From positions 24,035,870-24,099,869 of the forward strand of contig CM055111.1 in assembly GCA_029204225.1 (NCBI GenBank): a stretch of DNA of 64,000 nt, given 5' to 3'. Source of the DNA: Diphasiastrum complanatum (taxonomy: Eukaryota > Streptophyta > Lycopodiopsida > Lycopodiales > Lycopodiaceae). The position numbers and the translations under genes were made by a program. Below are positions 110-50,506 of the stretch, piece after piece; the first letter of the stretch is position 1; each line of letters begins with the position of its first letter. The notes beneath the pieces were generated by a model that was not told the DNA's origin, ran no database searches, and saw only the letters and a list, made by a program, of their open reading frames with translations.

Positions 110-314
110 CATACATATTCGAGCAACAAGCATGTTCTATGTCTCCAGTCTCTTTTCTTCTGCTTTGACTCCCCATTCTTACTACTCTTGCAAATTCTGT
201 GGGATTGTCAACACTTATTTGTCTGAGTTCCACTTCTTCAAAATGATTCATTGTCTCGATGGATGTGTATGTATCTGATAGTTTCGACGATTCTGTAAGC
301 AATAAATCTCGAAT
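110..314 (-). CDS. KAC: KAC-like kinesin exon 7 (motor domain; 3' boundary uncertain)
   Basis: After a gtgcag acceptor (320-315) the exon opens with IRDLL, directly continuing NEQ of exon 6. It goes on with [15 protein letters not shown], matching KAC sequence around IELxQEKVDNPxEF. The reading is clear to about position 130. The donor is uncertain: GT at 109-108 or 127-126 are candidates, neither strong. The next exons would lie beyond the left edge. Confidence 0.85.
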
Positions 315-3300: not shown

Positions 3301-6300
3301 TTGGCGTAACTCCCCGGCAATGGCGCCAACGCCAAGAATGCAGCGAGTTTTCCTATCCACCTTCAACCCTAGATCTAAGCACTTGCAAAGCATCAAGAAT
3401 GGAAGAGAATTCCTTACATGTCACGCGGAAGTTCACACCCATGAGAGCATAATTTAGATTCATACACATGCTTATCATTCAACATCTAACACTATGATCC
3501 ATTAACCCTAATCACCAAGATCAAGCTTGCTTTTCTCTCTCTCTTTTCTCTCATAAAAATAGACACAAGATTCAATTCCAACAGTTAGCAAATCCAAATA
3601 AAATAAGATACCAAGAAAACATGAGAGATGGAGCAAGAAAGAAGAGCAAGGACATCCAAATCCAATTTGGTAGAGTTTCCACCACCTTGATTGAACATAA
3701 AAAAATGAACTACAAAGCATTACTATATATAGTGGATTTTAGGGCACTTGGCCTCAAGGCCTATTGGCCAATTTCTACCTCCCTCCTTATTTGAATTTGA
3801 ATTTTGGGGGGAACCCACTTTTATTAACTAACTTGACTATTAGGCCTTGAAACATTTAATTCCCACATTTGGCCTAAAGTCCTTTTATTAACAATTATAT
3901 ATCTAATAACTATGTGATCATTCGGGCTGGACCTACACACGCAGGCTGCCAAATCCCTCACACTTATTCAGTAATGTAGATCTATGATCTAAGAATTAAC
4001 TTGTCTCAATATCTATTTCCTTCCAAATGGTACCAGAGCCATTTGATACTTCAAAGCCTTGGACATGGCTTTGACTAGAACTATAGTTTTAGATATCAAA
4101 TTATTTTGATAGTTTTGTTTCCAATCAAATCAAGTTTGGAACATTCATATCTGAATCAATACTAGCAAGGATTCATTTGAGTTTCAAGTAGTAGCTTTAT
4201 ATTTACTTGTGGTCTACAAGCATTCTCAATCAGAGACACATCTCAATTGTGTGGCATGCATAGCATATTGAAGCTATGTTACAATTATCATGCATGCCTG
4301 AAAAAAGCATTTGGAGTTGTGATAACCACATCCAAGGCAAGTATACTATTGCATTCAAGCATGGAGGCATCTCTCTCAGTGGTTTAGCTAGTGAGCCTGT
4401 GTGAGATCTCAAGGAACGATTATTCCTTTCCCTATATTTCTCATACCATCCTATGGGGGTGAACCATCACATATTGAGATGATATATCAAGGATTTATGA
4501 GGCGGCGATCAGCCAGTCCATCAGGATGTACATACGCAGACACATATCACTACATTCTTCTCTAGCACACAGCATTGATGGCAACTAGACTCAGAGTCAA
4601 ATGACGAGGACACATTACACCCACATCAAAGACGTGTACATTATCGTATCAGCATCATCAACTATACTAGCTACATTATGTCCACACCAACAGAGTAAAA
4701 CCTCAAAGACAACATCAACAACGACACCAGCAGCCTGCTCCTGATCCATCCATTCTTACCATTCCTCAAGCAGATATCACATATTTTTTCAGCAGAGTCT
4801 AGGGAGAAACATCAATGGCCTCGACTTTTTCTGACATTTTTTATTCACATTTCTATGTTTAGTCTTTGGTCTGCAGTCTAGTCTAACATAGCATAGAGCA
4901 TTGTACCTTGCTATGTTCATTTATTTATGGCACCATCTTCTACGGAGCCTTCAGCGCCTTTTACATCTACATCTCCAGTTACCCCTGCTCTAGTGTCTCG
5001 ATCTAATCTGCCTTATGTCATTCCTATATCTCCTTCTATGTCTCATGTTGAATTGGATACAGCTTGGCATACCAAGAAAGACGTTAACACTCTTATCTTA
5101 CGCTTTACTTCATTGGAGTCTAGGTGAGAGGTGCTACAATGTTGGTGTAAACTAAAGGATACTAAGATCTTTCTAGATGAAGACCTCACTTTTGTACAAG
5201 TTGTGGAACGGAAAAAGGCCCTCCAAGAAGCGAAAGATACAGGCAGACGAATGATCAACAGCGATGGAAATATTCATTTTGTCGAGACCAAGCACAAAGC
5301 TACTATTGAGAGTGTAGTTTCGACTGATTTAGAGCAAGGTTTAAAGAAATGAGAAGTTGTCCAATTGAACATGTAAATCATATAATCTTGGACTATATCT
5401 CTCTCTCTTCTTAGTTGTCATTTTGTTATGTTCTAGTAGTTTAGATAATGCAGTAATTCTGTTTCGACGGCATTGATCCATCTAGTTTTTCTATCATACT
5501 TGGATGTACTTCTCTCATCTTATATGCCCTTTGGCATGAAAAGACATTAATGAATCTTCTTCTTCTTCTTCTTCCTCTTCAGCTCCCCTGATCCGCGCCC
5601 TCTCTCGCTGATTCGCTCCCCTGATGGCTCCCCGAATGGCGACCTGATCCGCGGTCCGCCCTGCACTGACCTCCCTGATCTCATGGAGATGGCTCCTCGT
5701 GGACCTGTCTCCCGCGCCACAGCTCCTCTCCCTCCACGCCGCACTACTCGCTCCCCTATCACCTCCCCCCCTCCCCACACTACCATCCCCTCCCCCCCCC
5801 CTCTTTGAAAGCAACACCCACCCCCTCGTTAAAACAGCACCCCCCCCACTCGTTGAAACCAACACCACTCTCGATGGTGGCTCAGACCCCTCGCTGTCCT
5901 CAGATCCGCCCTCCCCTTCGCTGCCTACAGATGTGCCCTCCCCCTCACTGTGCTCAGTTCTGCCCTCCCCCTCGTTGGCTACAGATTTACCCCCTCACTG
6001 CCTAATGATCTGCCCTCCCCCTCGCTGCCTATAGATCTGGTGGCACCCCCTTCTTCCTCCCCACTCTCGCTCTCTTCCTCCTCTTCTTCTCTCTCTTCTG
6101 TTGTTCCTTCCTCTCTTTCATCTTCTTCTTCTTCGGCCTCTTCATCATCTCCACTGATCTCCAACCCTATCGATCTGGCCATCCCTACCGGCCTCCTTCC
6201 TATCCCTATTTCCCAAGAACCCACAACTGCTTCATCTGCGGTACCCATCCCATACACCCCTTCCGAATCAACCAAACTATTTTCCTCCAGGGAAGTTGAC

Positions 6301-9300
6301 CAAATGAAACCCGACTTCCAGCTTTTGAAACAGGAACTCTTACAGTTGAAGGGAATAGTGGTCTCCTTACTCAAGGAAAAGAATGTGTTGCAATCCAAAG
6401 TCGCTTCATTGGAGCAAGTGGTCAATACTAAGCAGGTTGCAGCCTCGGAATCGACCACCACCATGATAAGGGAGCTTGAGAGTAAAATTGAGCAGCATAA
6501 AGACTCATGGGCAGCAGTCTTGAAAAAAGGCACCAAGCCTACGCCCCAATCTCCTCCGTCAACTCACCCACCATTTCGGAAGAGAGGTCAAGGGAGCAAA
6601 AGGCCCATAACATCAGGGTTCGTGGGATACGGGACACACAAGATGCCATTGCCAAAGCCACGAGATTTCTCGAGACCACTCTAGGATATATGACAGATGG
6701 GCTAGATACAGCTTGGAGGACCACCAGAGACGCAGCTACACTCATTACTCGTTTCACTTCCCTAACAAGCCGCTGAGATGCTTTGCGGTGCAGAGCTAAG
6801 TCACGTGGCACCACTACCTATATGGATGACGACCTCACATATATCCAAGTAGAGGACAGGCGTAAGGCCTTTCAGGCAGCACGCGAGTCTGGCAGACGAG
6901 TCATTTATCGAGATGGGCGAGTGCGCTTTCGCTCCTAGCAGATCCCAGTGCTAGGGATTTGGGGTGCCCGAGGTTCGTAGCACCCCGGGGCCCCATCTAC
7001 ACCACCTTCGAATTGGAGCATGGAATTGTGCTGGCATACACTCATCCTCTACGGCAGGGGACCTTGTTGATTCCAAGGGCAAGTTTCCACACTACAAGCA
7101 ATGGAGACACACAAGAGCCCGGAGCAAGCACTTCCTTCTTTTCCTAGATATAGATGGGATATTCTCCTTGCAGGGGATTTTAATGCACGGACATCCTCGA
7201 GACAGACAGAGTTCTTCAACACCACTGATCAGCTACGTGTTCGTGCCCTTGACAGTGATATGCTTGGAGTTACCAGGACCTCCGCGGACAGTTTGGGACC
7301 TACTACTTCATATGGTGAGCACTTACTGCAGTTTGGAGAGGCACATGAGCTAGCCATTTATAATGGCTTACCCAGTTGGCCACATTCAGACAGTTATACA
7401 TGCCACCCTCACAGTGCAGGACATAGTGTCGTTGACTATCTCATGGGGTCACCATCCTTTGTACCCATAGTTTCTGACTTCCATGTTTCCCCCACCACCC
7501 TTTTTGATCACTCATTTCTCTCCTTCGATATCGGCCACCTTCCACCCACTCATCATCTACACTACCCATGCTTACCCAAGCACCCACATACACATTTGAT
7601 CCCACTTACATGCCACTATACCGGCAATCCTTGGCTTCACTTTTACACTCCTTTCCTCACGAGAATCCAGTTGACACCCAAGCTAATTTTCTCACCACCT
7701 CTCTCCACACGGCTGCATCACTAACCCTTCCCACAAAACCCCATCTCAGAAAGACTCGACACACACCTCGACCATTGCATCCCCCATGGTATGATACCAA
7801 GTGTCGTTCTCTTCATCAGTCAGTAACCTATTCACGCATCCATGCCCCACATTTGCTTCGATCTTTTCGACATTCCTACCATCGTGCTCTCCGCCGTAAG
7901 AAGCGTTCCTATGATAATTCTGAAGGGAAACGTCTCACTGGCCTTCTTTTCAGTTCTTCTTCGGGCACTTTTTGGCATGAGTTCATTCCTCGCTCTCCAC
8001 CACCTCTCCTGGAGGACCTCCGCATTTGGACTGATTATGCTACTAGCTTGTACATTGTCCCTACCGACTCACCTATCTCTATATCTCCACGACCATCTGA
8101 GTTCTCCTTCTTCACATTTGACATGGTACTTGTAGCCATTTAGAAGATGAAGTTCCACATGGCCAGAGATATTGAAGACCTTGAATCTGAACTCCTCTCC
8201 CATGCCTCTGACTTACTCGCCCCCACCATAGCCACCCTTCTTAACTCCGCAGTTGTCTCCAGTTTCTCGTCATCCTGGTGCACTAACATTATCCACCCCA
8301 TCCATAAGAATTGTGAGCCCATGATTCCTAGTAACTACTGCACCATCATGATTGGGCATGTCCTGGAACTATATGGTACCATACTACAGTCTGTTGTGAG
8401 CTCAGAGGCGGAGACTAGGAGACTACATGGCATAGGTTAGGCTGGTTTTCGAGCCCATTATTCTACTGCAAATCACATCTTCACATTGCGAGCCTTGATT
8501 GAGGAGGCTAAGCACCGAAGAGAGTTACTGTTGTTTTGTGGACTTCAGGAAAGCCTTTGATTTTGTTCCTTGCTCACTGATCATCCAGAGACTCCGAGAC
8601 TTCGGTTTCTCCACCGACGGCTGTCAGGGGTCATTAGAGTTTATTTTCTCCGTGGGTGGAATCTTCTCCAGGGATAGTACGAGTACAGAACTTTCTCCAG
8701 GCTTTGATTGCATGACTTCATGGGGTTAATGCCATATTTAATGAGGTTGGGGTAATGTATATGGTTTTGAGGACCCAAGGAGCATTTTTTATGGTCCATG
8801 TACTCAAATTTGGAGGGGCCCATCTCATAATTGGGGGTCCATGGGGCAAGTGACGTTCTCCAATAAGCACTTGGCTGTCCAATGCCAAGACTTTTCATTT
8901 GCCTTTGTAACTCCTATGTAACACATGGCTCTTGGCTCTTGGCTTTTGGATATTCCACATTGGGAACCATTGGCCTTTGGATTTCTCTATCTCTACTAGT
9001 ATAAAGAGGCGGCCTCTTTCTGCTAAAGAAGGGAGGAAGAGCCTGAAGAGGCTGGAGAGACTAGAGAGAGTGGCAATACTTATAACATTAATGGGTGCAA
9101 ATTCAAGTGATGATTTGGATTCCTATCGGATCTTGTGTAACTTTTTGGATGATTTCTAAAAGAGGGACAGATCTGAAATTTTTGTTTTTAGCATGAATTA
9201 TGGTTGTCTACACCTTAGAACCATGTTGGGAATTTATTTTCTTGAAAAAATAGGAAGTTTCCTACCATTTTCAAGTTACATATTTTGAGAATTCATCACG

Positions 9301-15300: not shown

Positions 15301-18300
15301 CTTGGCGTTGTTAGAGTTGACGGCAAACGTTTGGGTGCATCCCCATGCCCTAGTATGTCGGCCCAGGAGAGGCGTAGATTGATTGATATCTACAGGCCAC
15401 GTTTGATAGCCGATGGCTTGGCACTAGACCCTATAATCAGTAATCATGTGACCTCAGTGACCTCTGATCCCTATGTTGCACACCCTCCTCAACTGCAACT
15501 ACTGCATCTTCTCAGCCAGCTGGAGCACGTCCTCCTACAGCTTCCCACTCTGGTGCAGCACATCCTCTTATGCCAGCTGCCTCCCGAGCTTCCTCTGCTA
15601 GAGGAGCTGGGAATGCAAACCCTTTCCCGAGTCATCCACCCGCGGTCACGGTTGTGACTCGTCCCACCCACACATTTAGCTATCTTCGCAGCGACACACC
15701 CCCTCCCAGCCAGCAGGACCCTCTACCCACCCAGGATATACCGTCCACTTACCCCCCTCAACCTGATGACGAGCCACACTTGGGGGAGGACCTCCCATTC
15801 ACTGATCCGACTGACGGTGATGCATCTGTTGCCCCCCCAGCTCCACCTGCTCCCATTCCAAATCCTCCTGCCCCAGCACCACATGCTGCCCCACCATCCC
15901 ATGCTCCACCCACCCATCCTCGCCATCAGACCGCTTTCTGCCATACCTCCACCTGCCTCTCGATCTACCTCCCACACACCTGCTAGTTCACATACACACT
16001 GACAAAGGACCATGGGGGAGGCAGTGGCTCCTCGTCTTCTGAGAGAGGCCCAGCATGTTGTGGCCAACATGATATATGAGTTGAACCTCCCGTTCAACAT
16101 TGTCGACACCGAGCCTTTCAGGAGGGCTTTTGCAATTGCTGTAGCCGCTAGTACACGCTTCACACCACCTGGGGCTGAGCACATCCGCACTACTTTATTG
16201 TCAGAGAGGGTAGACGAGCTCTCCTCTCAGATGACCCCTCTCAGGAAGGCCTGGGAGAGTTACGGTTGTTCGATCATGTCCGATGGCTGGAGTGATATCC
16301 GTCGAAGGCCAGTGCTCAGCATCATTGTGTCCTCTTGCATGGGCAGTATGTTCTATCGCGTGTGAATCTGCAACCGAGAGATGTCACACCAAGTGTCTCT
16401 AGATAAACCTGGACACCATGTCTCTAATGAATATAGTGCAACTGGAGAAACAGTCGAAGAGAAGAGGCGACAATGTGTGTCCGGGTCATGCACATAATAA
16501 GTAGAGGAAAACTTGTCCATCTGAACAAGAGCAGAGCGCCCCTTGCGGAGCCTAGCCAATGCAGCCGGTCTAAAAGAAAGCAATGGACCAAAAAAGAGAA
16601 CACTGAGGTATGTGTATGGCACCACTATCTCTAGGAGTTGTCCATCAAAGTAGAACATAGTGTCTCTCATATGCTGTCTGTTGGTGTTAAACACCATAAC
16701 CTTAGTCTTACAAATGTTTACCCTCAGCACCCATATCTGACAGAAAGTATACAAGACATCCAGATGTCGTTGAAGTCTTGAGGCCGAACATGATAGTAGA
16801 ACCACATCATCTGCATAAAGAAGGATAGGGATAACATTATCTGCTAGAGGACAGCCATCACCACCCTCTTCCCGAATGATCCACTCAAGGTCATCAATGT
16901 ATAAAGCAAAGAGGGTGGGTGACAAAGGACAGCCCTGCTTTACTCCTACTGTACTATGGATATATGAGGACCATCCATCTCCATCACAAAAACGCGCCAA
17001 AACTCTCTCTTATAATGTGATAATAGCAGCAATTACCTCCTGTGAGATACCAAGGGATGCCAGACGCTGGAGCAACAAGTGTCTCGGAACCGAATCAAAT
17101 GCTTTGCGGAAGTCCACAAAGCAGCAAAAGACTCTCTTTCCTGGACTTCGCTGCCTCAATGATACATCTCAGTATGAATATCTGGTCTGCAGTGGAATAA
17201 CTTGCTCTAAAACCCGCTTGTCCCATAGCATATAACTCCTCTGTCTCTGCCTGAGAGCTGATGATAGACTGCATAATCGAACCATAGAGCTTAGCCATAG
17301 TGTGGCTGATCATAATCGTACGATAGTTGTCTACATTCAGAGGATCACCAGCCTTAAGTATAGGATGCAAGAGGTTAGTACACTAGGGTGTGGGAAGGCC
17401 AAAAATAACAGATTGGTTAAAAACGTAGGAGATGTATGGAGCAACAATATGGGCGATAGGTTTTAGAAAGTCCATACTTTGAGAGTCAACATCAATGGCT
17501 TTATGGTTTTGTTTTGACCATTTTTTATGGCGTTTTCAATCATGGATGGAGTGAAAAGAGTGAATTCTGATGGACGTGGTGAGAGAGAAATGGAAGGAGC
17601 AGCATAGTCAATCCAAGATTCAATGGAAATAGGAGCGGGCTTATGGATGTGGTGAGAGAGAAATGGAAAGAGAGTCCACTGTAAAAAGTCTTGCAACATA
17701 GTCAATCCAAGATTCAATGGAAATAGGAGCGGGCTTATATGGGTTTTTAGAAAACATCTTCCAAAAGAAGGTGGAAGAAGTGGAGTCCAAGGAATTGATG
17801 AGTTTCTATGCCAGAGATTGAAAGTAAAGTCTTTTTTCGTAAAGTCGTTCTCTGGTATTCCTTTTGTTTAGATGCTAAGGTGCCGAGAGAATGGTATTCA
17901 ACGTGGACAACCTGCTTGTGTAGGAAGAGGCACTCATCATCATACCATCTATTGTACGTGCGTTTATGAGATGAGAAATTTTTTGGAGGATAAGCAGTAT
18001 TGGCTGAGTGAAGAAGTGACTGAGATAAAAAGGCTACTTGTTGGTCTACTGAAGACGAGAAGGGAAAATCGTCGAGTAGTGTGGCTAGAGACGAAGTGTA
18101 AGTAGGGATACCAAGTGGAGAGAAAGAAGGACGAAGGCGACGTGTGGAACGAGGTGTCATAATAGTACCCGGAGTAATATGGCCAAGAGACAGGAGCAAT
18201 AAAGAGTGATCAAAGATGGTAGGGTGCAAAATATGAAAAGTATGAAGAAAAGGAATCAAGGTTGGTGAGCCAATGAAATAGTCAACCACGATGTGTCCAC

Positions 18301-19914
18301 CTTCGTGTGGATGGCAAGTAAAAACTGATGATGACGACCATCGAGACAGGCCATTTTGAATGGCTAAAGAATGAGCTTCTACAAGTCCAATCAACTATTC
18401 TCCAAAATGTGTAGCTGGGGTATCTGCATCCTCAGAGGTCCTGTCCAAACCCACATCCAAAGCCTGAATCTGAAGGAAATCATTGTCTGCATGAAACTCT
18501 GTCTGCCGGGAGCTGGTGCGAGCATTAAAATCTCCTGCTAGTAGAATAAGGCCCTGCTGTGCAAAGCTGGCTATATCATCTGAGAGATCCTGGAATGGAT
18601 CACCACCATAGTCTGCAAAAGCTGATGACTGAGGTGCAAAATAACGCCTATACGCGTTATTTTGCAAGAAGATGACTGTTGTGCAAAATAACACCTCAAG
18701 AAAGGCCTATACGCTGAATGCCAGGCACAATCCTGAATGGCAAGAAGAGGTCGATATAATGATTCATGGGTCTCTGCTAGGAACAAAATATCACATTTCT
18801 GCAAAAAAGAGTGAAAGTCTCCTGCTGAAGAAGATGAAAGCACACCGTTACAATTCCAAAAACCAATTTGCAATGGCTGAGGGGATCCTCGACTTCCTAT
18901 TGTGAAATTTTATCGTAGAATTTAGGCTTGCCTTCAATAAAGATCACTCTTTGATTCCTAGCATTGGCCTCATGAATGACCAATTTCCTCGCTTGCCATT
19001 GTGTATGTGTTAGTCTTCATCCATAAAAATAAAAGTACCTTTGAGCTTAGCTCGAAGGAGTAAAGCAGCATTGCGTTGTTCAATGGAACGAAACTTTAGG
19101 AATAAGACCTTATCGTGAAATTTGCTCCTCCAAGCAGTGTCAAAACCTTCAATAGTATGTGCAAGCTTAGATACAAGAAGGTCTTTCGCTTCATCAAGGG
19201 CCTTGTTTCCATTAGGAATACCCCTAACTCATATATTGAGAGCCTTCTTGGCTCTTCGCTCGTGTTTTGTAAAAACATCCTTGAAGGAAGAATTCATTAA
19301 CGAAGCCTGAACTTGGTTAGAGGAATTACCATCTTGCTTAAGAACCAAAGCCCATGTACGAGTTTCTTCCACTTCTTTTGACAACGATGAGATTTTACTT
19401 TCCACCTCTTGCTGCGAATGAAGATCCTGCATCCCTTTCATTTTCATCATGTCGATATTGCTTTGTAAATCCTTATTCTGAAGACCAACTTTGATAAGTT
19501 CTTCATGAAGCGTCTGATTCTGTAGATGCAATTTCTTGATAAATTGAAACACTTCTTGAACTGATATTGTAAGTAGTTGTGAAGAGAATCAAAGTCAGCT
19601 AAGTTGCTAGGTTGCAATTGCTCTGCAGAGATACGATAGGCATCTACCGAAGATAAAATCGGGATCGGTGCAACACTGGCCTGCAATGGAAGATGAGGTG
19701 AAGACTGTCCGACCAAGTCTGTTACAGAAGAAGAAGGAGAGCCAGCGAAGGCCAGGTCAGCGGGAGCAAATGATTGGCTAGTAGGAGAGGCCATAGCAAG
19801 GTGTGGACAGGTCCCTGAGCAGACCTGAGCGAAGCTGAGCGGACAGACAAGACAGGTCAGGAGGACCTGAGCTGAGTGGACAGACTGGAGCGGCAGACCA
19901 GGGGAGCACCATCG

Positions 19915-20000
<86 letters not shown>

Positions 20001-23000
20001 AAGAAAGCTTTATTAATGTCTTTTCCATGCCAAAAGGCATATAAGACCAAATGGAGTACATGTCAAGTATGTGAAAACCGTGGAAGCGTATATAAACGTC
20101 TCCAAGAAAAAACTATGCATAAAAGAGAAATGAACAACATAACTATAAATTACAAATTGCCGATTGTCCATATAGCTGCCAGGAGTAGAGTAATATCATG
20201 TAGTGCTATTGTTGAAGAAGGATGTGATACGAGCTGCAACATGAAGTAACATGGACCGTCGCTGACGTCGTCTAGGAGGGTGAAAACTGTGCGCTCTCGT
20301 AACATGGCGTGAAGTGCGAACTGCAGCATGACTATGAGTGATGCACTGTCTCTGACATTGGTGAGGTGGTGAAAGAAAGAAAGAAAGCTTTATTAATGGC
20401 TTTTCCATGCCAAAAGGCATATAAGACTAATGAAGTACATGTCAAGTATGTGGTAACCATGGGAGTGCATAAAACATCTCCAAAGCTGTAATAAAAAAAG
20501 CATCCAGTACAAACTAAATAGATACGTAAGCAAGAGTGTGTGTGCGCATAATAGTCATATGTATCCATGTCAAGATGTCAAGACTGTGCTGATGTTGTAG
20601 AAAGATGTAATGCAAGCCGCAACATGAGAAAGCACCTGGATGGACTTCGCTCTAGTTGAACAAGGGAGGCATGTCCCTTCCCTAGTCGAGTGGTAGCAGC
20701 TTGTCTCAACCCTGCTTCACCCCAATAGTGCTCCCAATGTGATCAGATATGCCACTGTTATGTCGAAAACATCCCAGGACACGCTCATAAAGTGCCATCA
20801 CAGCAAGAATGATGTCGGTGGAGAAGCCGAGGTCTCGGAGTCTCTGGATGAGCAATGAGCGAGGAACATATTCAAAGGCTTTCCTGAAGTCCACAAAACA
20901 ACGGTAAACCCTCTCTCTCCTATGCTTAGCCTCCTCAATCAAGGCCCGTAATGTGAACATGTGATCTGTAGTAGAATAATGGGCCCGAAAACCTGCCTGA
21001 CCCATAGCATGTAGTCTCCTGGTCTCTGCCTCTGAGCTCACAACAGACTGAAGTATAGTACCATATAGCTTCGCTAGGACATGCCCAATCGTGATGGTGC
21101 GATAGTTACTTGGAGTCATGGGGTCACCATTCTTATGGATGAGGTGGATAACGTTAGTGCACCAGGATGATGGAAAACCGGAAACAACTCCGCTATGGTG
21201 GGAGGTCAAATGCATGGGAGAGAAGTTTAGACTCAAGGCGTTCAATATCTCTGGCTTGTGGGACTTCATCTTCTTAATGGCTCTAGTACCATGTCAGATG
21301 TGAAGAAGGAGAACTCAAATGATCGTGGAGATATAGAAATAGGTGAGTCGGTAGGGACGGTATACAAGCTAGTAGCATAATCAGTCCACATGCGAAGGTC
21401 CTCCAGGAGAGGTGGTGGAGAGTGAGGAATGAACTCACGCCAAAAAGTGCCCAAGGAAGAACTGAAAAGAAGGTCAATAAGACGTTTCCCTTCAAAATCA
21501 TCATAGGAACGCTTTTTAAGGAGGAGAACATGATGGTAGGAGCATCGGGAAGATCGGAGTGGATGTGGAGCATGGATATGTGAATAGGTTACTGACTGAT
21601 GAAGAGAATGGCACTCTGTATTGTACCATGGAGGGTGCAATGGTCAAGGTGTGCGTCGAGTCTTTTTGGGATGGGGTTTGGTGGGGAAGGTTAGTGATGC
21701 AGTAGTGTGGAGAGAGGTGGTGAGAAAAGCGGCTTGGATGTCGACTGGACTGTCACCCCATGAGATAGTCAACGACACTTTGTCCTCCACTGTGAGGATG
21801 GCATGTATAACTGTTTGAATGTGACCAGCAGGGTAAGCCATTATAAATGGCTAGCTCGTGTGCCTCTCCAAACTGAAGTAAGTGCTCACCATATGGAGTA
21901 GTAGGTCCCAAACTGTCCGTCCTGGTAACTCCCAACATATCACTATCAAGGGCATGAACACGAAGCTGATCTGTGGTGTCAAAGAACTCTGTTTGTCACG
22001 AAGATGTCCGAGCATTAAAATCCCCAAGAGGAGAATAAGCCCCTGCTCTTAAAATCTGATAATATCCGATGAGATGTCCTGATATGGAGATCCAATACCC
22101 TCAGCAAAAGACGAAGACTCTGGTGGAAAGTAACATGCTGCAATAAAGACATCTCTATCTAATCCAATATCCTGACCCACAATGCGAGTCCATATATAAC
22201 GGGCCTGCTCGTCATGTCTGATGAAGTCAAGACTCGGGTGGAGAGACTCTCTGTATAAGCATGCGACCCCTCCTGAACCTCGGCCACTGGCAGACCTAGT
22301 CTCTCGTCAGAATACTGAGTCCCAACTATATCCAGGCAAAAAAGGAAGTCCTCGCTCTGGGCTCTCGTGTGTCTCTGTTATGTCCATGTCCTGTACAAGG
22401 GAATCGGAATTATTCCTGACGTGGATAGCCGGTCACTCCAGTTGTATGTGGTTATTAGTTATGCTACGTCATTCTGGGCGTGGTCGTATTAAATAATTAA
22501 TAATCATATGAGGGCCCAGACCTATAATTGGACATAGGAGCACATGCATGGTGAAGACTGCTTTAATGCAAGGATAGGAGATCAATAGCTCAATATACGA
22601 GCATGGGGAATCCTAAAGGGAATATTCTCTCTCTCTAGAGGAGAATAAGTCTAGTGGAAACTCGCCCCTCCTCCTATTGTGAATTGTGATTCTTGAGCCA
22701 GTGTTTCCTCTCCTCTTTTGTGTTCTTCACTGTGGCTTGGGGGTGGATTGGTTAGGGTATTAACTAGCCTCTCCATATTGGTTGGGTGGTTCATGCTCTA
22801 CAGGTGTCCTTTTGGTTTGCATGTGATTGGAATCCTGTAAATCTTCACTTGGTGGTTCTTACAGTGGTATCAGAGCTTGGATCACATCTACCAGGAGGTG
22901 GAGCTTGAGGATCTTGGATTTTGCAGTTCCTTTGGTGTAGCTCTTTGCTTCTTCTTCTAGGTGTTGGAATTCAATTTCAAGTAGGTGGATTCTCAAATCC

Positions 23001-29000: not shown

Positions 29001-32000
29001 GATGATTCATGGGAAAGGGTCGAAAGCATAAAGAAGAATTTCCCTAGTTTTCATTCTAGAGATAGAAATGGTTTAAGAGGGGAAGAATGTTATGTCCATG
29101 TCCTGTACAAGGGAATCGGAATTATTCCTGACATGGATAGCCGGTCACTTCAGTTGTATGTGGTTATTAGTTATGCTACGTCATTCCGGGCGTGGTCGTA
29201 TTAAATAATTAATAATCATATGAGGGCCCAGACCTATAATTGGACATAGGAGCACATGCATGGTGAAGACTGCTTTAATGCAAGAATAGGAGATCAATAG
29301 CTCAATATAGGTGCATGGGGGATCCTAAAGGGAATATTCTCTCTCTCTAGAGGAGAATAAGTCTAGTGGAAACTCGCCCCTCCTCCTATTGTGAATTGTG
29401 ATTTCTGAGCCAATGTTTCCTCTCCTCTCTTGTGTTCTTCACTGTGGCTTGGGGGTGGATTGGTTAGGGTATTGACTAGCCTCTCCATATTGGTTGGGTG
29501 GTTCATGCTCTACAGGTGTCCTTTTGGTTTGCATGTGATTGGAATCCTGTAAATCTTCACTTGGTGGTTCTTACAGTCTCCATAAAGAATAATAAATCCC
29601 GGCCGATAATAAAGTCAATCAGGTCCCCTGCAGTAGAAGATGAGTGTATGCCAGCACAATTCCACACTCCAATCCGAAGGTGGTGTGGATGGGGGCCCGG
29701 GGTGGGCCCGGGGTGCTCCCACCTCCGGGAACCCCAAATCCCTAATGAGAAGGTCCCGTGGTATATATGGCTCTCCTACCTGACTCTCTGGCTTCCTAGA
29801 AGGCCTTACGTCTCTCCACCTGGATGTACGTAAGATCGTCGTCCATAAAAATAGTGGTGCCTCGAAGCTTAGCTTTGCATTGCAGAGCATCCCGCCTAGC
29901 AGCCAATGAGGTGAAACGGATAATCAAAGTGGCCGTATCTCTAGAGGTCCTCCATGTCGTGTCCAATCCCTTTGTCTGGTGTCCTCGTGTGGTGTCCAAA
30001 AAACATTTGACTTCGGCTACCGCATCCTGCGTTTCTGGGATCCCTCTAACTCTGATATTAAGCTCCTTTTGTTCCCTGGATTTCTTGGATCGTGGCTGAA
30101 ATCACCGAGGTAATGGGAGCACTAGGTTTAGTACCCTTCTTCAATATCGATGCCCAAGAGAGAGTTTCTTCCTTCTGCTGCTCCAATGCTTTGATCATAA
30201 TAGTGGTGGATTCGGAGGATGAAACCTGCTTATCGCCCATTGCTTGTTCCAATTGCGAAATCCTGGCCTGCATAGCATTTCTTTCGTTGAGTAGCATTGC
30301 GACGGTCTCCTTAAGCTGGGAAAGCTCCATCTTCATACCCTGGAAATCAGTTCGGAACTGATCTTCTTGAAAAGGAGAGAATAGTTCGGTTGCTTTTAAT
30401 GGAGTATAGGGAATGGATGGAACAGTAGGTGGTTTAGGAAACTGTAGGATCCCAACAGAAGGATCTGTAGGAGCAGAGGCTAATGGTACGATAGTTGCCG
30501 GCTTTCATGGGATCACCGCCTTTATGGATAGGATGGATAAGGTTTGTGGACCAAGGGGAGGGGAAACCATATGTGATAGAGCGGTTAAAGAGGAAAGAGA
30601 GGAAGGGTGAGAGAATGTCAGCAGCCTGCTTCAAAAGTTCAGCTTCTAGATCATCAATATCCTTGGCCTTATGTAGGTTTAATCGGTCAATGGCCTCTTC
30701 TACTATGGCTGGGGAGAATATATCATAAGTACGCGTGTAGGGGTGTGTGGGAAGTGGAGGGGTGTCAGGTACAGTGTACAACGATGTGGCATAGGTTACC
30801 CATGTGCTAAGATCTCGTGAAAGGAATTTTTGCCAAAATGATCGTGACGAAGAGCTAAAGAGAAGGTCCAACATCTTCTTCCCCTGGCTGATTTCGTTAG
30901 GGGAAATGAGTCAGGAGGTCAGATAAGGCTTCCCTGTACCTAGGGGTGTTTTGAGGATTATAGCGGTATATGGTCTCGTCGCCAGGAGTTAGTGTACTAG
31001 TGCATGGGGTGTGAAGAAGGCCAATAGAGAGAGAGAGGTGTGAGTGGTCAGACAGGGTGGTACAGTGAACCATGAAAGATGAAATGTAGGGGAGGAGAGA
31101 CGGCAATCCCATGAAATAGTCAACAACACTACTCCTTCCGCTGTGTGCAGTATAAATGGCCAATCCATGAGCCTCGCCCAACTGAAGCATCTGCTCTCCA
31201 TATGCAGTAACTGGACCCTCTGCATCTGCTGATCGTCGCCGGAGGCCAAGATCATCCCAGTCTAAAGCATGTATCCGCATCCGCTGTGGATCATCCTCTA
31301 CTCTATGGAACTCTGTTTGCCTGGATCCAGTCCTGGCATTAAAGTCGCCAGCTAAACGAACATAACCCCACTCCTCGTATCTGATAATGTCTGAAGAGAT
31401 ATCCATGTAAGGTGACTCCTCATCTGATGTGAAAACTAATGTGTCCGGTGGGCAATAACAAATGGCCAGAAAGAGGTCATGGTTCAGTCCCATCAAAGTC
31501 CGGTCCACAACTCTGACTGTCGTGAAGAGATTCGGGCATTAAAATCCCCAGTGAGGAGAATATGCTCTGCGAATCTAATAATATCAGGCAATAAATCAAG
31601 GTAGGGTGAAGTTGTGCCCTCAGCAAAGGACGAAGACTCTGGAGGAAAATAACATGCTGCCACAAAGAGGTCCCTGTCCAAACCAATATCATGTCCAACA
31701 ATACGAATCCATGCTCGTCGTGTCTGATGAACTCGATGCTCGGATGAAGAGACTCTCTGTATAAGCATGCAACACCTCCGGATCCACGACCGCTAGCTGA
31801 TCTAGTCTCAGGTCTGTAATGATGAAATCGATCAAGTCGCCAGCTATGGAAGATGAGTGTATACCATCACAGTTCCATACTCCAATCCGGAGAGAGAGAG
31901 AGAGAGAGAGAGAAAATGTATTAATGTCTGTTGAGTGCCCAAGGGCACATAAGACAGAATGAATAAGCACATGTCTCGTAGGATTACTGTCCATGTCGAA

Positions 32001-38000: not shown

Positions 38001-41000
38001 GAAGAGAGAAAAGAGATGGCAGATCTTAGTCCTTCAATGAAGATCCTTAAACCTGCAAAGAAAATCATAAAAACAAACATAAGATGCAAAAGCCCACAAA
38101 GAAACATCATATGGGGAATAAGCGTCCGTGGCAAAAGAAATGTTATAGGTGGAAAGCAACACATTGCTATAAAGATGTCTCTATCTAGACCAATGCCCTA
38201 TCTACTGAGGCGAATCCAAAGATAGCGTGCATGTATATCAAGACCAATGAACTCAATAATAGGCTGTAAAATCTTCCGATACAAGCATGTCACCCCACTT
38301 GAGCCTCTGCCACTTGTGGAACATGTCATTATCCTATATGTTGAGTACCGTCAAAAGCCTAGAAAATCTGGTAAGCCTCTCTCACTACTCTCGTGTGGCT
38401 CAGTAAACAACAATATATCACATTGTGAAAATAAATCAACTAGATTGCCGGTTGTGGATGATAAGTGAATCCCATTACAATTGCACACTCCAATCCTCAC
38501 GTAGTGTCGAAGGGGGCCCCGGATGCTCTCGTGCATGGGGACCCCAATTACCTATTTTTTCTTGTTATCAATATATTTCACTTGGCCATCTCTATAAATA
38601 GCAATCTATCCCAAATCAGAGCAACCTGAAAAGCTTTTCTCCTCTCTTCAACCTGTAATGTTATTATGTAGAAACATAGTTGCCTTTGATTTGGCTTTAA
38701 AATGTGATACCGATCTTTGTTCTTCTACTGATGTAAAGCGGATGATCAATCCCTTTGTTAAAGATAATATCGTCCTACACATTATAAATGACAGTAACCA
38801 GAGGAAGTGTAGAATACATTGAAATCTACCTATGTATGAGCACTTCAAGAATCCTCTTTCTAAAAAAAACCTATATAGTTTGGGGATAAGGGTAGATGAG
38901 TTTATTAGAAATTAGCTTACTAGAGTCAAAGACATTAGAGATCAATTAGCTATTGTTGGTGAAAGAATCCCAAATTTTGATCGTGTTTCTATTACGCTCA
39001 ACTGTTTCTGAAAATCTTACCAAAATTTTGTGATGACCATAAATAAAAGAGAAAGAAGACGTTCATTCTAAGAGCTACATGTCATGCAAATGGATGAGGA
39101 GCTAAGAAGGCTAAATCTCTCTTCAAGAGACGATTTTCAAGAGCAAGCGTTTACTACAAGGAGGAACTTTATGGGGGCTTAAAAGAACAAGAGTTGGCGA
39201 AAATCTTCAATTGTGCCTATGATGGCAAATATGCATATTATTGGAGGTCAAGCAAGCTCTACTTCAAAGAATCCAACAAGCCACGTTTCTAGTTCCTCAA
39301 CAAGGCGAGGTGATTGCAACTATTGTGGCAAATGTGGCCACTTTGCTTTTGAATGCAAAAAAAAGGAGGTAGATTTGAAGAGAAAAAGCCCAAGGAGCAA
39401 TCATCACAAAAACCTTCCACATGGAGGTGATGTGCAACTATTTTCAATATCATCATATTCTCAAGAATTCACACGCAAGTGGTTAATAGATTTTGGAGGC
39501 ACACAACATATGACACCACATAAAGTGCAGTTCATCACATATGAAGACATTCATTCAGTATTACTTATCTAGGGTATTCATACGTTGGGATCTTTCTCGA
39601 TGAGTATATAGGTATCCTTCAGTCTCCTTGTATTTCTACATATAGGCTTGCTGCAGTCAATGCTGATGGTATACACTTTTGGGCCTTATACGCATTAGAG
39701 GCTTTTCATGCTACTGATTCATTTTTACCTCTTGATATTTAGCATTCCTGGTAATTTCGTATAGCTTGGATTTCATTTGGACCCGTTGCTCATGCTACTA
39801 CTTCATTTTAACCTATGGATATATGGCATTCCTGGTTATTACGTATAGCCTGGCTTTCATTTGGACCTGTTGATTGGTGCTAGTTTTTCCATATTATTGA
39901 TCGTCCATGGTGTGGATATCTTGGTTTTCATGATATACCTATGAAACTTGATCTGTTCCTTGAATTGTTGCTCGTTGTTAGGCTTGGCATCTCCTGATAG
40001 CTTGGGTTATTTTCCCTGGCATTTCTAGTTGCTCCATATCGCTTGGTCTCCGATGTTGTTACTAAGTTGCCACTTTTTTCTGGTGTTCCTGGACCATCAA
40101 AGTACCTTGAGAGAGTTTCTTCTCCTTTCTTGGTTATTTTTTGGGGATGTTGCCGCCATGTACTTCAATGTTGCTCACATGTGCTTTGATAATCATTTCC
40201 AGCTACAGGTGGATATTGCTCTGACACTTGCTACTAATGATGCGGATCTTGTTTTAGTATATCAGTTGAGCTTGTTATTCCTCGTTCCAGTGCATTTCTT
40301 CTTTCAGTTATTCCAGTGGCTTCAATTACTACTCTTCCTGATGCTAGTTCTCTGGTTGTCGTCTCCCTGCATGTGACTTTTCTTGTTCTTCTATTCCTCA
40401 CTTCTGCACCTGGTATGTACATTGGGATTGCACTTGCAGCTAGTTCTGATGGGTCATCCGATTCTCCATCCGTTTTTCTGCATCCTATGATGGCTTCGTA
40501 GGTCCATATGAGGTCCTTCTAGATGAGTATTTTGGCTATAGTTTCTCCGTTGGAGCCTCTACTATTTCTAGATTTGCTGCTACTGCTTTCATGCACCATG
40601 TCTTTTTAGATGATGCATTGCTTTCCTGGACCTTATGGATCTCTTGGCATGATGATCTTCTCGCAATACGTGCCTTCAGGATACCGTGTGCCATTGCTAC
40701 TTCTCATTCATGGGCCTTATGGATACCTTGGGCTTTTGACCATGTTGGTGCACATTTCTCCATTCTAGCTATCCTTTGTCAAGATGATCTCTTTATGCTT
40801 CATGTTTCCTGGCATATCGCTTGATCTTCCATGATATTGCAGCGTGACGGTTGTTTGCTTATGTTCCTACTCCTTGGTGTTGGTCTTCTAATGCTGCTAT
40901 CCTTTCTTGGGGCACCTATATCGCTGAGTTTGCACATATAGTTGATAGTTCCATATGCGATTGGGATCAGCATTTGTGTTTTGCAGAATACAGTTTTAAC

Positions 41001-43136
41001 AGTTCGGTTAGTACTAGCACAGGTGTGTCTCCATTTCAGTTGACTAATGGACATTTCCTGCCGCTACCAAGTATTCCACCCCCTCCTGATGATGTTCCTG
41101 TTACTTTATCTTCTTTTCCTACTAACACTCATGATTCTATTATGCAGGCACAACAACATTTGGCGCGAGCTCAACATCGTTCTAAATCCTTGATTGATTG
41201 TCATAGGTCTTTTCTAGAGTTTGCTGAGGGCCAATCTGTTTATGTTCGTTTATCTTTTGCACGTCATAAGTTTGTACAGGGTCGTTCTCTTACTGAGAAA
41301 TTGTCTGCACGTTACTATGGTCCTTTCCAGATTGTGGAAAAACTTAGGCCTATTACTTATCGTTTACAGTTAACTGCTACTACTCGTGCTTGTGACATTT
41401 TTCATGTTAGTCTACTTCGTTTGTCTCTTTTTCCTAGTGAACCTTGTGATCCTTCGTTTCCTATTGATCCTGAACTTTTTCCATTTTTACTTGCTGCTAT
41501 TTTACAAGTTCGGGTCGTTTTACGTCGTCGTCGTCGTCGTCTTATCCAATTTTTGGTCCAATGGGACAATCTTGATTGCTTCATTGTACTGAAAGCGGAT
41601 ATCCGCGACTGTAGGGGATTCAGCTTTTGGACTGACACCACAAGCACGAAATGTATAACCCAGGAAAGAAAACGACAATACAACGGTACTAAAGTAGCTC
41701 TAGTAGTTAAAATTTATAGCCCACATTGAGGACAATGTTTTAGAAGGGGGAATTGTTATGGACACGCATTATGGTCCATACTTCTCTACTTTCTACAGTA
41801 TTAGTGGACACACAATTTATATTACATGTGACGGGCCTAGAAATATAGGAGGTAAGGTTTGTGCACTATAAATAGCCACTAAGGCTGGTCATTTGCTAGT
41901 TTTGATCATTTTGAGTCTTGGGCTTCTCGTAGGGGAGTTGTACTATTTTGGAGATCTTAGTTGGAGATCTGCCTGAGCTATCGGCGGCCATTGATATTTA
42001 TACAGTTTCTTAGTTGGAGAATGCTATGTGAATGCCTTTTGCTGTTTTTTATGCATCATTGATACTACTACTTGTGAATCCGTTCATAACAATATTGATG
42101 CAATGGACATGGGTATTATCGGGACTTCACATATGACCTTGGACCTGTAACTACTTAAGGGGGTAAGCATTTACGTCATTTTGGAGGAGCCCATGAGCTC
42201 AACATTTTTTATGGCTTAGCTGGTTGGCCTGACACTGGGGGATTTACTTGCCACCCTCATGGGTGTGAAGTTTGGGGTGGTAGCATACCTCATGCTGAAT
42301 GGACTAAAATCGAGAGGGCATAAAAGAGGTTCCTGTCTTCTTATTTAAGTGTCATACAAACTAAAACATATGCTATCTTGTTGGCTGGTCATATGTACTT
42401 CCGTTGAAAGTGGTCGCATTGCTTGGAACAATCAAATATTTGGAAAGGATAGACACCTTACAAGATGATCATCTCTCAAAGATAGCGGTTCAAAATTGTG
42501 TGCTCCCTCAAAGACTAAGCAATGGTTGGTGGCTGGACATTGTAAATGCTGAATTATTGGAAAATCCAGCATTGTGGAGAAAAACTTTACAGAGAAAATC
42601 TGTAAGAGGAAAATGCAAAAGTACAAAGATTGGTTCAATTCTATACTTAGGGGACCCGTACAAAGGAATATCGAGGTGGACATCTCTATGTCCAAGAAGC
42701 AGGCCAAATTGAAATATGCACAAATTCACACGGGCTTAGATCGTAAACAGAAGATAGTGTTTATCCAAACCTTCCTTGGGAGGTACGTACATGCTTACTT
42801 CGAAAAGATGATCAAGTGGAAATGGAGCATTAACATCCTCTTTTATTGTGGCCACCTTCAACCATTCAAAAAAGACTTCAAACTTCAAAGGACTCTTCAA
42901 TGAGCCCTCGCTTTCTATGGCTAGTTTCTTTACTCATGATAACCTTAGCATGCTTTGTAGCTTTGTCATTTAAGCTAATGAAATACATAAGAATATGTTG
43001 AAACCACCCAATTAGACATGATCCTTTAAAGAGTTTTATTTTTAAGTTCATTTATCGGATGTGAAAGGCATTGGCATTGTACTTGTTACTTGGTTGCATA
43101 GACCTTTTGGTCGTCATGGATGTTAATAAGGTAATC

Positions 43137-43201
<65 letters not shown>

Positions 43202-46200
43202 AGTACAAATAGACAGACAGGTTTACTAAACATTGATACAAAAACGATGTTAGTAACTTAGAACATTGTAGAATCTTGTTTATTGTGAGCAACTAATAAC
43301 CTAATCTGTGGGCTTTTTCAGCAAGTACGCCTAGGTAGCGTGTCACTCTGGCTATTTTCGCATTTGAATACTCTTGCAGGTCGCTTGCTTCTTGTCTAAG
43401 CTCCAAAAAATCATCTCTTGTGGTCTGCAAAACGCTAGAAAAAGGCAACAAGTCATTTCTTGCCAATATGCTAGAACCAAGCTTTGCATTTCTCTATAGG
43501 TTCACTTTCAATCAAAAAAATAGGCCCACACAAAAATTACTTGACTACTTATGTCGATCTTTTTAGTACTTAGAAATTCATCTTGGGACTTTACCCAATA
43601 TAGGTAGTAATTATAGCAATTAGCTTTTGCCCTTTTGCTATTTGCTTTAGGCTCTTAGCTTTTCTCATTGATTATCGAATCTATTTAAGTAGGTTGGCCA
43701 CCCCACCACAATAATTCCATTCAATTCTATTATGCTAGAGCAATTGCTCAATTCTCCTATGATCTGAATTCTCTCTATGCTTGGTTTCGTGTGAGTGCTA
43801 CCTGTGCTCGCTTGAGTGGGGGTGTTGGAGGATGCAAGCTACACACAGTGGGCTGCTTCCGTAAAGGCACCAAAAGAGTGCATTTATCCCATAAGTAAGT
43901 GGAGACTAAAACATCACCCACATATAAGCACATAGTAGACACAATACCCTTGTCCCCTGGTACCAACCCTTTTGGGGTCAAGTGAGAAAAAGGCGGGTGG
44001 CTAGGCGGTGGGGTTGGGATCCCACACGCGGCCCGCAGGTGCGCACAATGCACGACATCGTCTACTGGACCAGATTGTTGCCGCTTTCCGTTGCCGACAA
44101 ACTCTGACATGGTATCAGAGCCATAGAAGAAAAGCTCATCATATCATCAACTTGTCAGTTAGAGATATAATTATACCTCATATCAGAGATGTTGCTAGAC
44201 CCAAGGAGGCTTGGGATATACTGAAGAACTTGTATGAGACGGTAAATCAATCACGAATCTTATTCTTGACTAATAAGCTTCATACATTGAAGATGGGTAC
44301 AGTGAATTAGTAACGGACTACTTTACTCGGGTGAAAGATCTGAGAAAACAATTTATTGTCGTTGGAGAAAGTGTTCAAGATTCAGTGTTGGTATCCATTG
44401 TGCTTAATAGTCTACCTTTGACCTATCAGAACTTTGTAATGATGCTATCGTTAAGAGAAACGAGGCCTTCTTTTGATAAGCTAAATGCCATCTTACTACA
44501 ATTATACGACAAAATACTATCAATAGGGATGATTTCAAGGAACAAGCATTTCTGGCAAAGAAGCAAAGTTCCAAGAAGGGTGGCAAAGGGAAGAAGAAGA
44601 AGAAGAAGAAGCAAGATATGGAGGAGAATCAATCAAATCGGTCAGAAGATGGAAAGAAAGTGGTTCAAAAAGGAAACTGCTTTATTTGCGGAAAATCAGG
44701 ACATTATGCAAAGGAATGTTGGCATAACAAGTTCAAGAAAAAGCAGGACAGGAATTTTGCTGAAGAGTACAAGTTCAACTACCTTCAGGGAAGATTGGAA
44801 ACATAAAGGATGTGCTTTATGTACCAAGAATCAAGAAAAACTTACTCTCAGTATCAGCTAAAGCAACAGTGGATCATCATGCAAGTGTTGCGGCTACTGG
44901 ATCATTGAGTAAGTTATGGCACGAGAGGTTTGGACATCTGAATTACAAAAGTCTACAAGTCTTGAGGAAATTTAACATGGTTACAAGTTTACCTCAAGTT
45001 GTTTCTGATCACAAGGTTTCTGAAGGCTGTGTCTTAGGCAAGCATCATATGAAGAAATTTTTGCCTAGTACATTCAGGGCGAAAAATGTTCTAGAACTTG
45101 TTCATACAGACTTGTGTGGTCCTATGAAGACTCAATCTTATGGGGGAGCAAGTTACTTTATGGTGTTTGTGGATGACTATTCTAGGAAGACATGGATCTA
45201 TCTTCTGAAGAATAAGGGTGAAGCTTTCAAGTATTTCACGTGGTTTAAGACAAGTGGAGAAAGAAACAGATAGACAAATTAAGATACTTCGCTCGGACAA
45301 AGGGGAAGAGTATCTTTCTACGGAATTTCAGGTGTTTTGCAAGGATCATGTTATAAAGAGACAATTTGCAAACACGGACACGCCTCAACAAAATGGAGTT
45401 GCGGAAAGAAAGAACCGGTCTATAGTGAAACTGCGAGGAGTATGCTCAAGAGTAAAAATCTTGCAAATATGTTTTGGGGTGAAGCAGTTAAGACGGCGGT
45501 TTATCTTTTGAATAGAAGTCCTACAAAGATTGTAGAGAATCGAACTCCAAAGGAAGCTTACACGGATCGGAAGCCAGATGCAAGTCATTTGAGAGTGTTT
45601 GGGAGTATTGCTTATTCTTACATACCTAAGGATTCAAGGAGCAAATTGGATTCTAAGGCGACCAAGTGTTTATTTCTTGGATATTGATAATCAAGAGAAG
45701 GGATACAGGTTATATGACTTGGAGGGTAAGAAAATAATCATAAGTAGGGATGTAGTCTTTGATGAGGAGGCAACTCATAAAGATACAGAGATATATTTTG
45801 ACAAGGATCAAGAAGGAGGAATCCCTATATTAGGTGATGAGTTATTACAGGAACCTGAATCGACACATGTATCGCCTACGCCAATTCAAGAACCTAGAGT
45901 GACTTTGGTTAATATAGGAAAGAGGAAGGAGAGATCAAGTACATGGGATACTTATTCACCTCCTACTTCACCAGGCAGGAAGCATCCTACATCAGAAGCT
46001 AGAAGATTGCCTAGATGGTACTATGAAACTATCAAGGATAGTGTCATTACAAAATAGTGAGAGTCCAGTACGCATGGAACTAGGAGATCGGTTAGACTTG
46101 AAAAGCAACATGACGATCAAGATCGACAGGACGTTCGGCAGAAGGATCATCATGAAGATAGGGATGTACATTTTGCATATATGGCCACAGTATTAGAAAC

Positions 46201-49200
46201 CAAGGATCCATCTACTTTCAGAAAGGCTGAAAAAGAGGATATTTGGAGGAAAGCTATGGATGAGGAGTACGACTCAATCATGAAGAACCAGACTTAACGA
46301 CTTGTTCAGTTACCTACAGGTAAAAAGGCCATTGGATGCAAGTGGTTCTATAGAACTAAGTACAAATCAGATGGTTCTATAGATAAACATAAGGCAAGAT
46401 TGGTGGCAAAAGGTTATGCTCAATGGGAAGGGATTGACTATGAGGAAACTTTTGCACCAGTTGCTAAGTCTACTACTATGAGGACTATTTTATCATTGGT
46501 AGCTCAGTTTGGATGGGATATTCAACAAATGGATGTAAAGAGTGCATTCCTGAATGGATTTCTAGAGGAAGAAGTCTACATGGAGCAGCCAGAGGGATAC
46601 ATAGTAGCAGGACATGAAGACAAGGTTTGCAGGTTGGACAAGGCACTATATGGACTTAAGCAGGCACCCAGGGTGTGGTACACGAGGATTGACACATACT
46701 TTGAGGAGCTTGGCTTTAATATGATAGTGGATGTAAGCTTCCTAAAGCTGAGGAAGATCCAGATGTAGATGAGACGTTATATAGAAAGCTTGTTGGAAGC
46801 TTAATCTATCTAACTACTACAAGACCAAATATTGCTTATGCTGAGAGTGTGGTTAGTCAGTTTATGGCTAAGCCTAAGCAGATTCATTGGAAAGCTGCTA
46901 AGCGAATACTCAAATATATCCAAGGCACTTTGAGATTTGGTATTCTCTATGGTAGACAGGATGATTTGAAACTACAGGGATGTGTGGATGCTGATTGGGC
47001 TGGAGATGTGGAAGACCGAAGATCTACTACAGGTTATGTTTTTAGTCTTGGTTCTGGTGCTATCTCTTGGAGTTCAGGGAAGCAGCATACTATTGCTTTA
47101 TCATCTACAGAGGCAGAATATCGAGCTACTACGAGTGCAACATGTGAAGCAATATGGTTGCGGAGGGTTCTACATGATCTACATATGGTACAAGATTCAC
47201 CTACGGTACTTCAATGCGACAATCAGAGTTGTATTAAATTGGCGAAAAATCCAGTTTTTCACAGTATGACAAAGCATATTGAAGTACAACAACACTTCAT
47301 CAGAGAGAAAATTCAAAGTGATGAAGTGGAGCTTATCTATTGCCCTACGGAAGAGCAAGTTGCAGATATCTTTACCAGAGGTCTTGGCAAAGAAAAATTT
47401 CAGAAGTTTAGAGAACTTCTAGGAGTAATAGATAACAAAGTAAACATTAAGGGGGAGTGTTAGGAATTAATGTTTATTTTAATACCCCTTGATGATAGTT
47501 TGGCCATGCCTGCGTGCTATTTTTAGGGGCCATTCTATTTATAGTAAATTCGTTTTTTAAGGCTTATACAACGAAATTAGGATCTATTTAGTACTTAGAA
47601 ATTCATCTTGGGACTTTACCCAATATAGGGAGTAATTATAGCAATTAGCTTTTGCTCTTTTGCTATTTTCTTTAGGCTCTTAGCTTTTCTCATTGATTAG
47701 AGAATCTATTTAAGTAGGCTGGCGCCCCACCACAATAATTCCATTCAATTCTATTATGCTAGAGCAATTGCTCAATTCTCCTATGATTTGGATTCTCTCT
47801 ATGCTTGGTTTTGTGTGAGTGCTAGTAGGACTAGTATCTTCATCTAGAATTTGTATCACAAATTCTGACAACATCTCATACTAATTTTAGCTTGAAATAC
47901 AAAAAAAGGTTAGCTATTACATAGAAATCAAAAAAGCTACTAGAAGACTATAAATAGAAATTAAGGACACTCATTTGATAGCTTTTTCATTACTAAGATG
48001 CTTGGGCTCTTCGTGGAAATAATCTATAGGTGTAGGAACAACGAGGAACTTCAAGTGGACTTTAGAGTTGGTCAATAAAATAGAAGTTTAGAGAGATGAT
48101 TTTAGGGTTTTGGTATGCTTTATAGGTAGTGCACATTTCTATGTCTAGGGGTCTTGTTGAGCATCATACACTAAAGGATTCAAAATGGCATGACTAGCTT
48201 TTGTGTATAGTTCCCTATACAAATTTCTAGAGAAATCACAATAAGATTGAATTACCGATGGCCCCAAAGTTCCAAAGTTCCCCTAAGTAGATTTCCTTTA
48301 GGTGAGTCACTCGAACCTTCAATAACAAGCAATCCATTTTATTCCCAGTAAGTTGCTATCAATAATTTGTTGCTTAGTGTGAATTTGTCCCCAAAAACAA
48401 GGGGACTAGCGATGTTTCGGGCTATTATTCATAATCTCTCAATTTTTTCCCAACAAAAATGCCAAGACTAAAGAATATGTGCACTGTTCAAGTATGACGC
48501 ATAGCGACTATAGAAGTCCTAGCACCACTCAAGCTTCAAGAGCCATTATTGAAACTTTTCAAGACCTCTTTCGATAGGGATATTGCATCCTAGCTCAAAC
48601 TAGATTTTGTGAAGCCCATAAACAAAGACAAGTATCATGTGCCCTAGTGACATGTAGCAACATTAAAATCTTCCAAAATATTTTTGCGGGGCTCTTATTC
48701 CCATGATTGCCCAACTTTTGGACCATAGTTGTGTCGAACCGCGGTTCAAATCGCCAATTCAAATCGGCCCAGTTCGAACCGTTGTTTTGGTTCGAACCGG
48801 TTTTAAAAAAATGGTTCGAACCATTTTTTTGGCATTTTCCAAAGGACTATCTTTCATCATGCCAAAAAAAACAGTTTGAACCATTTTTTTGGCATTTTCC
48901 GAAGGACTATCTTTCTAGTCATGCCAAAAAAACGGTTCAATTTTTTCAAAGGACTATTTTTTCTAGTCATGTATGGAAGTAGCTACTAGCTAATGTCACT
49001 GATGAAATCAAATAGATCATAGCTAGAACTACAGGCAACAGATGGATCAAGAACCCTAAATCACAAGTGACATGTATTGTTAGGTAACAAGACTCAGGAG
49101 TTGGAAGTTCAAAGCCACGTCAAAATTCACTATCGATTAATCACGAATTCAAAATTATAATTGAAGGGTAGAAATTAAGGGGGGGAACCCTAAAACCGAT

Positions 49201-50506: not shown

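Follow-up and report, generated by a model that had tools for sequence, protein, structure and literature searches.

A probable start of a KAC-type kinesin gene spread over about 50 kb of transposon-bearing introns in Diphasiastrum complanatum

The window analysed here, a stretch of 64,000 nucleotides of Diphasiastrum complanatum (assembly GCA_029204225.1, contig CM055111.1, positions 24,035,870 to 24,099,869), very probably contains the 5' part of an ordinary KAC-type plant gene that extends over about 50 kb and whose introns are filled by transposons. Seven pieces on the minus strand (Table 1) fit one KAC-like kinesin colinearly and with matching phases, so that their membership in one gene is by far the simplest reading and is supported. 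Together the exons code for an acidic leader followed by a KAC-like neck helix and, P-loop included, the first half of a kinesin motor; they would be transcribed as one pre-mRNA, and the rest of the motor together with the C-terminal part would be located to the left of position 1. An earlier note on this DNA had proposed a single kinesin gene with the KAC/KIN-14 motif order over about 50 kb, a proposal that colinearity, phases, Pfam matches, and decoy searches support.

Gene structure

Joined on the minus strand from 50506 to about 110, the seven exons give 363 codons without a stop. All six introns (6,815, 9,251, 21,320, 1,215, 324, and 10,382 bp, in order) have GT-AG borders, the donor of exon 1 reading GTAAGT, and the carried phases are 0, 1, 1, 1, 0, and 0. 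Exons 4-6 are clustered within 2 kb; exons 1, 2, 3, and 7 are isolated. The seven exons, GT-AG borders, and matching phases claimed in the earlier note are thus borne out by the join, and sizes and distances agree with its description of exons 2 and 3 (124 and 87 bp) as islands 7-21 kb from their neighbours. Elsewhere in the window the seven exons have short partial matches only, so that it contains no second copy of the gene. A two-base GA/TC repeat at 50506-50558 (26.5 copies, 84% matches) immediately precedes the proposed start codon and lies in the presumed 5' leader of the kinesin gene.

Placing the right border of exon 7 at 110 is uncertain, because the donor there, which agrees with the consensus at 4 of 8 positions, is weaker than those of the alternative ends at 115 and 183 (5 of 8 each) and than the six internal donors (5 to 7 of 8).

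Table 1. Proposed kinesin exons and the transposable elements recognised in the introns between them
Feature	Position	Strand	Remarks
Exon 1	50506-50240	-	ATG start, acidic N-terminal region, then start of KAC-like helix
Exon 2	43424-43301	-	124 bp; neck helix
Exon 3	34049-33963	-	87 bp; remainder of neck
Exon 4	12642-12475	-	Beginning of motor core
Exon 5	11259-11153	-	Carries P-loop
Exon 6	10828-10697	-	Motor
Exon 7	314-110	-	Motor; right border uncertain (110, 115, or 183)
Ty3-type LTR retrotransposon	22376-29575	+	Intron 3; both LTRs; gag and pol frames interrupted
Ty1/copia-type element	43556-47824	+	Intron 1; reading frames broken
LINE remnants	16353-22303 (16353-18706 and 20706-22303)	-	Intron 3; RVT_1 3.5e-15 and 3e-7; self-similarity
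LINE-like remnant	29605-31809	-	Intron 3; self-matches to 6368-7070 and 21985-22303
LINE remnant	5857-8618	+	Intron 6; Exo_endo_phos_2 5.7e-5, below curated cut-off
Ty3-type integrase C-terminal fragment	40848-41729	+	Intron 2; SH3_Tf2-1 2.9e-14, Integrase_p58_C 4.3e-7

Similarity searches and family assignment

The tblastn searches used as probe an approximate Arabidopsis KAC1/KAC2-like sequence, which six of the seven exons matched singly, colinearly, and on one strand, with scores of 66.6 bits (exon 2), 59.7 (exon 6), 49.3 (exon 4), 47.0 (exon 5), 32.7 (exon 3), and 31.6 (exon 7). The match of exon 2 would correspond to a KAC-type helix directly ahead of a motor near the N-terminus and amounts to a strong 72% identity over 43 residues of this approximate probe, the first two aligned residues falling in the intron. 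Exon 1 gave no separate tblastn match to this probe, and its last 25 residues align with it once the exons are joined. Among the decoys, the best score was 26.9 bits for 30 windows shuffled in six-base blocks, a procedure that does not preserve dinucleotide content across block borders, and the reversed window and reversed probe gave 21.2 and 24.6 bits, respectively.

Pfam searches of the joined protein, which are independent of this probe, returned Kinesin (1.4e-34; 120 bits against a cut-off of 29.3) and Microtub_bd (6.4e-35; 120.8 bits against a cut-off of 27), the match to PF00225 spanning profile positions 38-193 of 327, so that the remainder would fall outside the window. When the exons were searched singly, three of the seven matched kinesin-type models: exon 5, the one exon above a curated cut-off (Microtub_bd 1.9e-13, Kinesin 1.1e-10), and, below cut-off, exon 4 (Microtub_bd, E = 0.002) and exon 6 (Kinesin, 2.3e-4). 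Single searches gave no Pfam match for exons 1, 2, and 3, and for exon 7 no kinesin match, just a weak unrelated one. It could be argued that GT and AG are frequent and that the borders are chance splice sites within transposon sequence, with no gene present; six colinear matches of 31.6-66.6 bits above decoys of at most 26.9 bits, combined with a Pfam E-value of 1e-34 for the join, nevertheless refute this explanation, the probability of which is negligible.

Alignment of the joined protein with the approximate Arabidopsis KAC-like probe shows 52% identity across 287 residues, neck included; for scale, an excerpt of PMC7497455 gives 64% identity between the KAC2 proteins of Brachypodium and Arabidopsis. 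The gene is read as a probable member of the KAC family on the strength of this identity and of the neck match, and the family name, which is supported, depends on this approximate probe. Among the 60 of 150 PDB matches listed, KIN-14 and other kinesin motors are found, with Ncd (3.1e-28, for 8yue) and KCBP (3.2e-22), both KIN-14 motors, as the top solved relatives, and the best stretches start at residue 112 or later. The matches to the KIN-14 motors Ncd, KCBP, and KAR3 would also suit a KIN-14 kinesin from a non-KAC branch; however, the neck segment is 72% identical to the KAC neck of the approximate probe, and none of the best stretches of the 60 PDB chains listed, out of 150 matched, reaches residues before 112, so a non-KAC origin has a very slight probability.

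Transposable elements within the introns

Recognised elements make up at least 63, 14, 63, 0, 0, and 27% of introns 1-6, respectively, a lower bound that follows from our own list of spans. The picture of a gene hidden in transposon debris, drawn in the earlier note, is correct in part: introns 4 and 5 contain no recognised element, and in the Ty3-type element of intron 3 both LTRs and the target-site duplication are still present. Twenty open reading frames were run against Pfam for transposons, and 12 of the 20 matched at 0.001 or better.

The target-site duplication of this Ty3-type element reads GTCTC and lies at 22371-22375 and 29576-29580, and its LTRs agree at 97.55% over 490 bp (12 differences in 488 bases; K2P 0.025). 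A pol frame of 937 codons is carried, and gag, RT, RNase H, and integrase zinc-binding domains exceed the Pfam cut-off, with the integrase core below it. An insertion bordered in this manner shows how such an intron grew, and the length of about 50 kb would be owed largely to retrotransposons that inserted in introns 1, 2, 3, and 6 and would be spliced out with them. The Ty1/copia-type element of intron 1 has an LTR-like pair at 95.1% and copia gag, gag_pre-integrs, SH3_retrovirus, and RVT_2 domains (Pfam), and no clear target-site duplication was seen at its ends. As for the LINE sequences, the frame at 17750-18394 within the intron 3 remnants has no Pfam match, both frames of the LINE-like remnant in the same intron are likewise without one and the remnant is assigned by copy similarity, and the remnant in intron 6 has an 85-89% copy at 20814-22037.

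Several further observations concern the repetitive content of the window: minus-strand Ty1/copia-type gag-pre-integrase and integrase fragments lie upstream of the kinesin start (59387-60666); a 160-codon open frame on the minus strand of intron 6 (1061-1543), with no Pfam match, is perhaps a retroelement gag; and short tandem arrays with units of about 60, 18, and 59 bases occur at 48805-48932 and 54632-54871. Rfam at gathering thresholds and ARAGORN, applied over the whole window, found nothing, and four stretches matched by pattern in a viral-contig scan were rejected, none being a relative.

The heavy transposon load, a 3' half not seen in the window, and the lack of a strong donor at exon 7 would all be compatible with a truncated or decaying KAC copy, that is, a pseudogene or partial duplicate missing its 3' half beyond the left edge, whose exons survive by virtue of recent origin. 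Against such a copy stand 363 codons without stop or frameshift and GT-AG borders at all six introns. Moreover, the LTRs of the Ty3-type element in intron 3 are 2.5% diverged, which suggests that neutral decay has had some time, and yet the P-loop exon and the neck are intact. A decaying copy is thus considered unlikely, and the start of an ordinary KAC-type gene is retained as the preferred reading.

Motor motifs and the P-loop

The translation of exon 5 contains a Walker A P-loop of the form GxxxxGK[ST], read as GPEGSGKT. A six-frame motif scan for the P-loop, SSRSH, DLAGSE, and two more kinesin motifs returned only two chance matches near 54.7 kb; the P-loop was missed because GPEGSGKT lies outside the narrower kinesin P-loop pattern used in the scan. 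The single SSRSH (switch I) occurrence, at 54724 on the strand opposite to the gene, was rejected as a chance match, and no DLAGSE-type switch II was present in the six-frame scan of the window; both switches would be expected at or beyond the left edge.

In alignment, the P-loop ends in GSGKT, like that of the working kinesin Ncd, whereas the approximate Arabidopsis KAC probe has GQTHAGKT, a P-loop ending in HAGKT. Arabidopsis KAC1 and KAC2 are described in excerpts of PMC3472504 as showing no microtubule binding and no detectable ATPase activity, and similarly in excerpts of PMC3402901 and PMC7497455; these sources also report a role of the two in the movement of chloroplasts. Given the GSGKT ending, the KAC of this plant may keep an active nucleotide-binding site, which we regard as quite unlikely; were it true, KAC in this lineage could remain ATP-using, as an intermediate between a motor and an actin regulator.

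Intron length in other plants

Introns of many kilobases with LTR elements, like those of the window, are known from ginkgo and from a fern: excerpts of the respective sources give for ginkgo a mean intron length of 7,884 bp, with 12.45% of introns above 20 kb and repeats accounting for 65.48% of intron length (PMC5118899), and for the fern Brainea insignis an average of 4,939 bp (PMC12868710). Conifers have long introns as well, which form a small fraction of their introns according to an excerpt of PMC4108047, and repeats in the intron sequence of white spruce amount to 2.94%, as given in part of PMC5118899. Since long introns are few in conifers and spruce repeats are so low, four introns of 7-21 kb within a single gene would rank high by the conifer standard. 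Transposon-bearing long introns are common in ginkgo and occur in ferns and conifers. The gene is judged real but ordinary, belonging to an established family and with surroundings familiar from plants that have large genomes.

Altogether, a conserved chloroplast-movement gene can, on this reading, bear introns of 7-21 kb loaded with retrotransposons, amid which short exons are easily overlooked by annotation. With such introns already known elsewhere, the practical value lies in a gene model for the region.

Comparison with known kinesins

Arabidopsis KAC1 (AT5G10470) and KAC2 (AT5G65460), which belong to class V of kinesin-14, appear to share with the window gene a neck helix followed by a motor near the N-terminus. 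The window gene differs from them in its acidic N-terminal leader and in having introns of up to 21 kb. The C-terminal region of KAC, which in this gene would lie outside the window, is reported to interact with actin. The microtubule motors Ncd (claret segregational protein; 8yue, 2ncd) and KCBP (kinesin-like calmodulin-binding protein; 3h4s) align with the window protein over the motor core, in contrast to its leader and most of its neck, over which neither gives a match.

Excerpts of PMC4853393 report KAC orthologs from land plants and charophytes and link KAC to chloroplast movement in Arabidopsis, a fern, and a moss. The window gene would be expected to share family and role with the orthologs covered there from Adiantum (a fern) and Physcomitrella (a moss). 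Its protein would help to position chloroplasts by way of short actin filaments, the function of KAC in Arabidopsis and in fern and moss.
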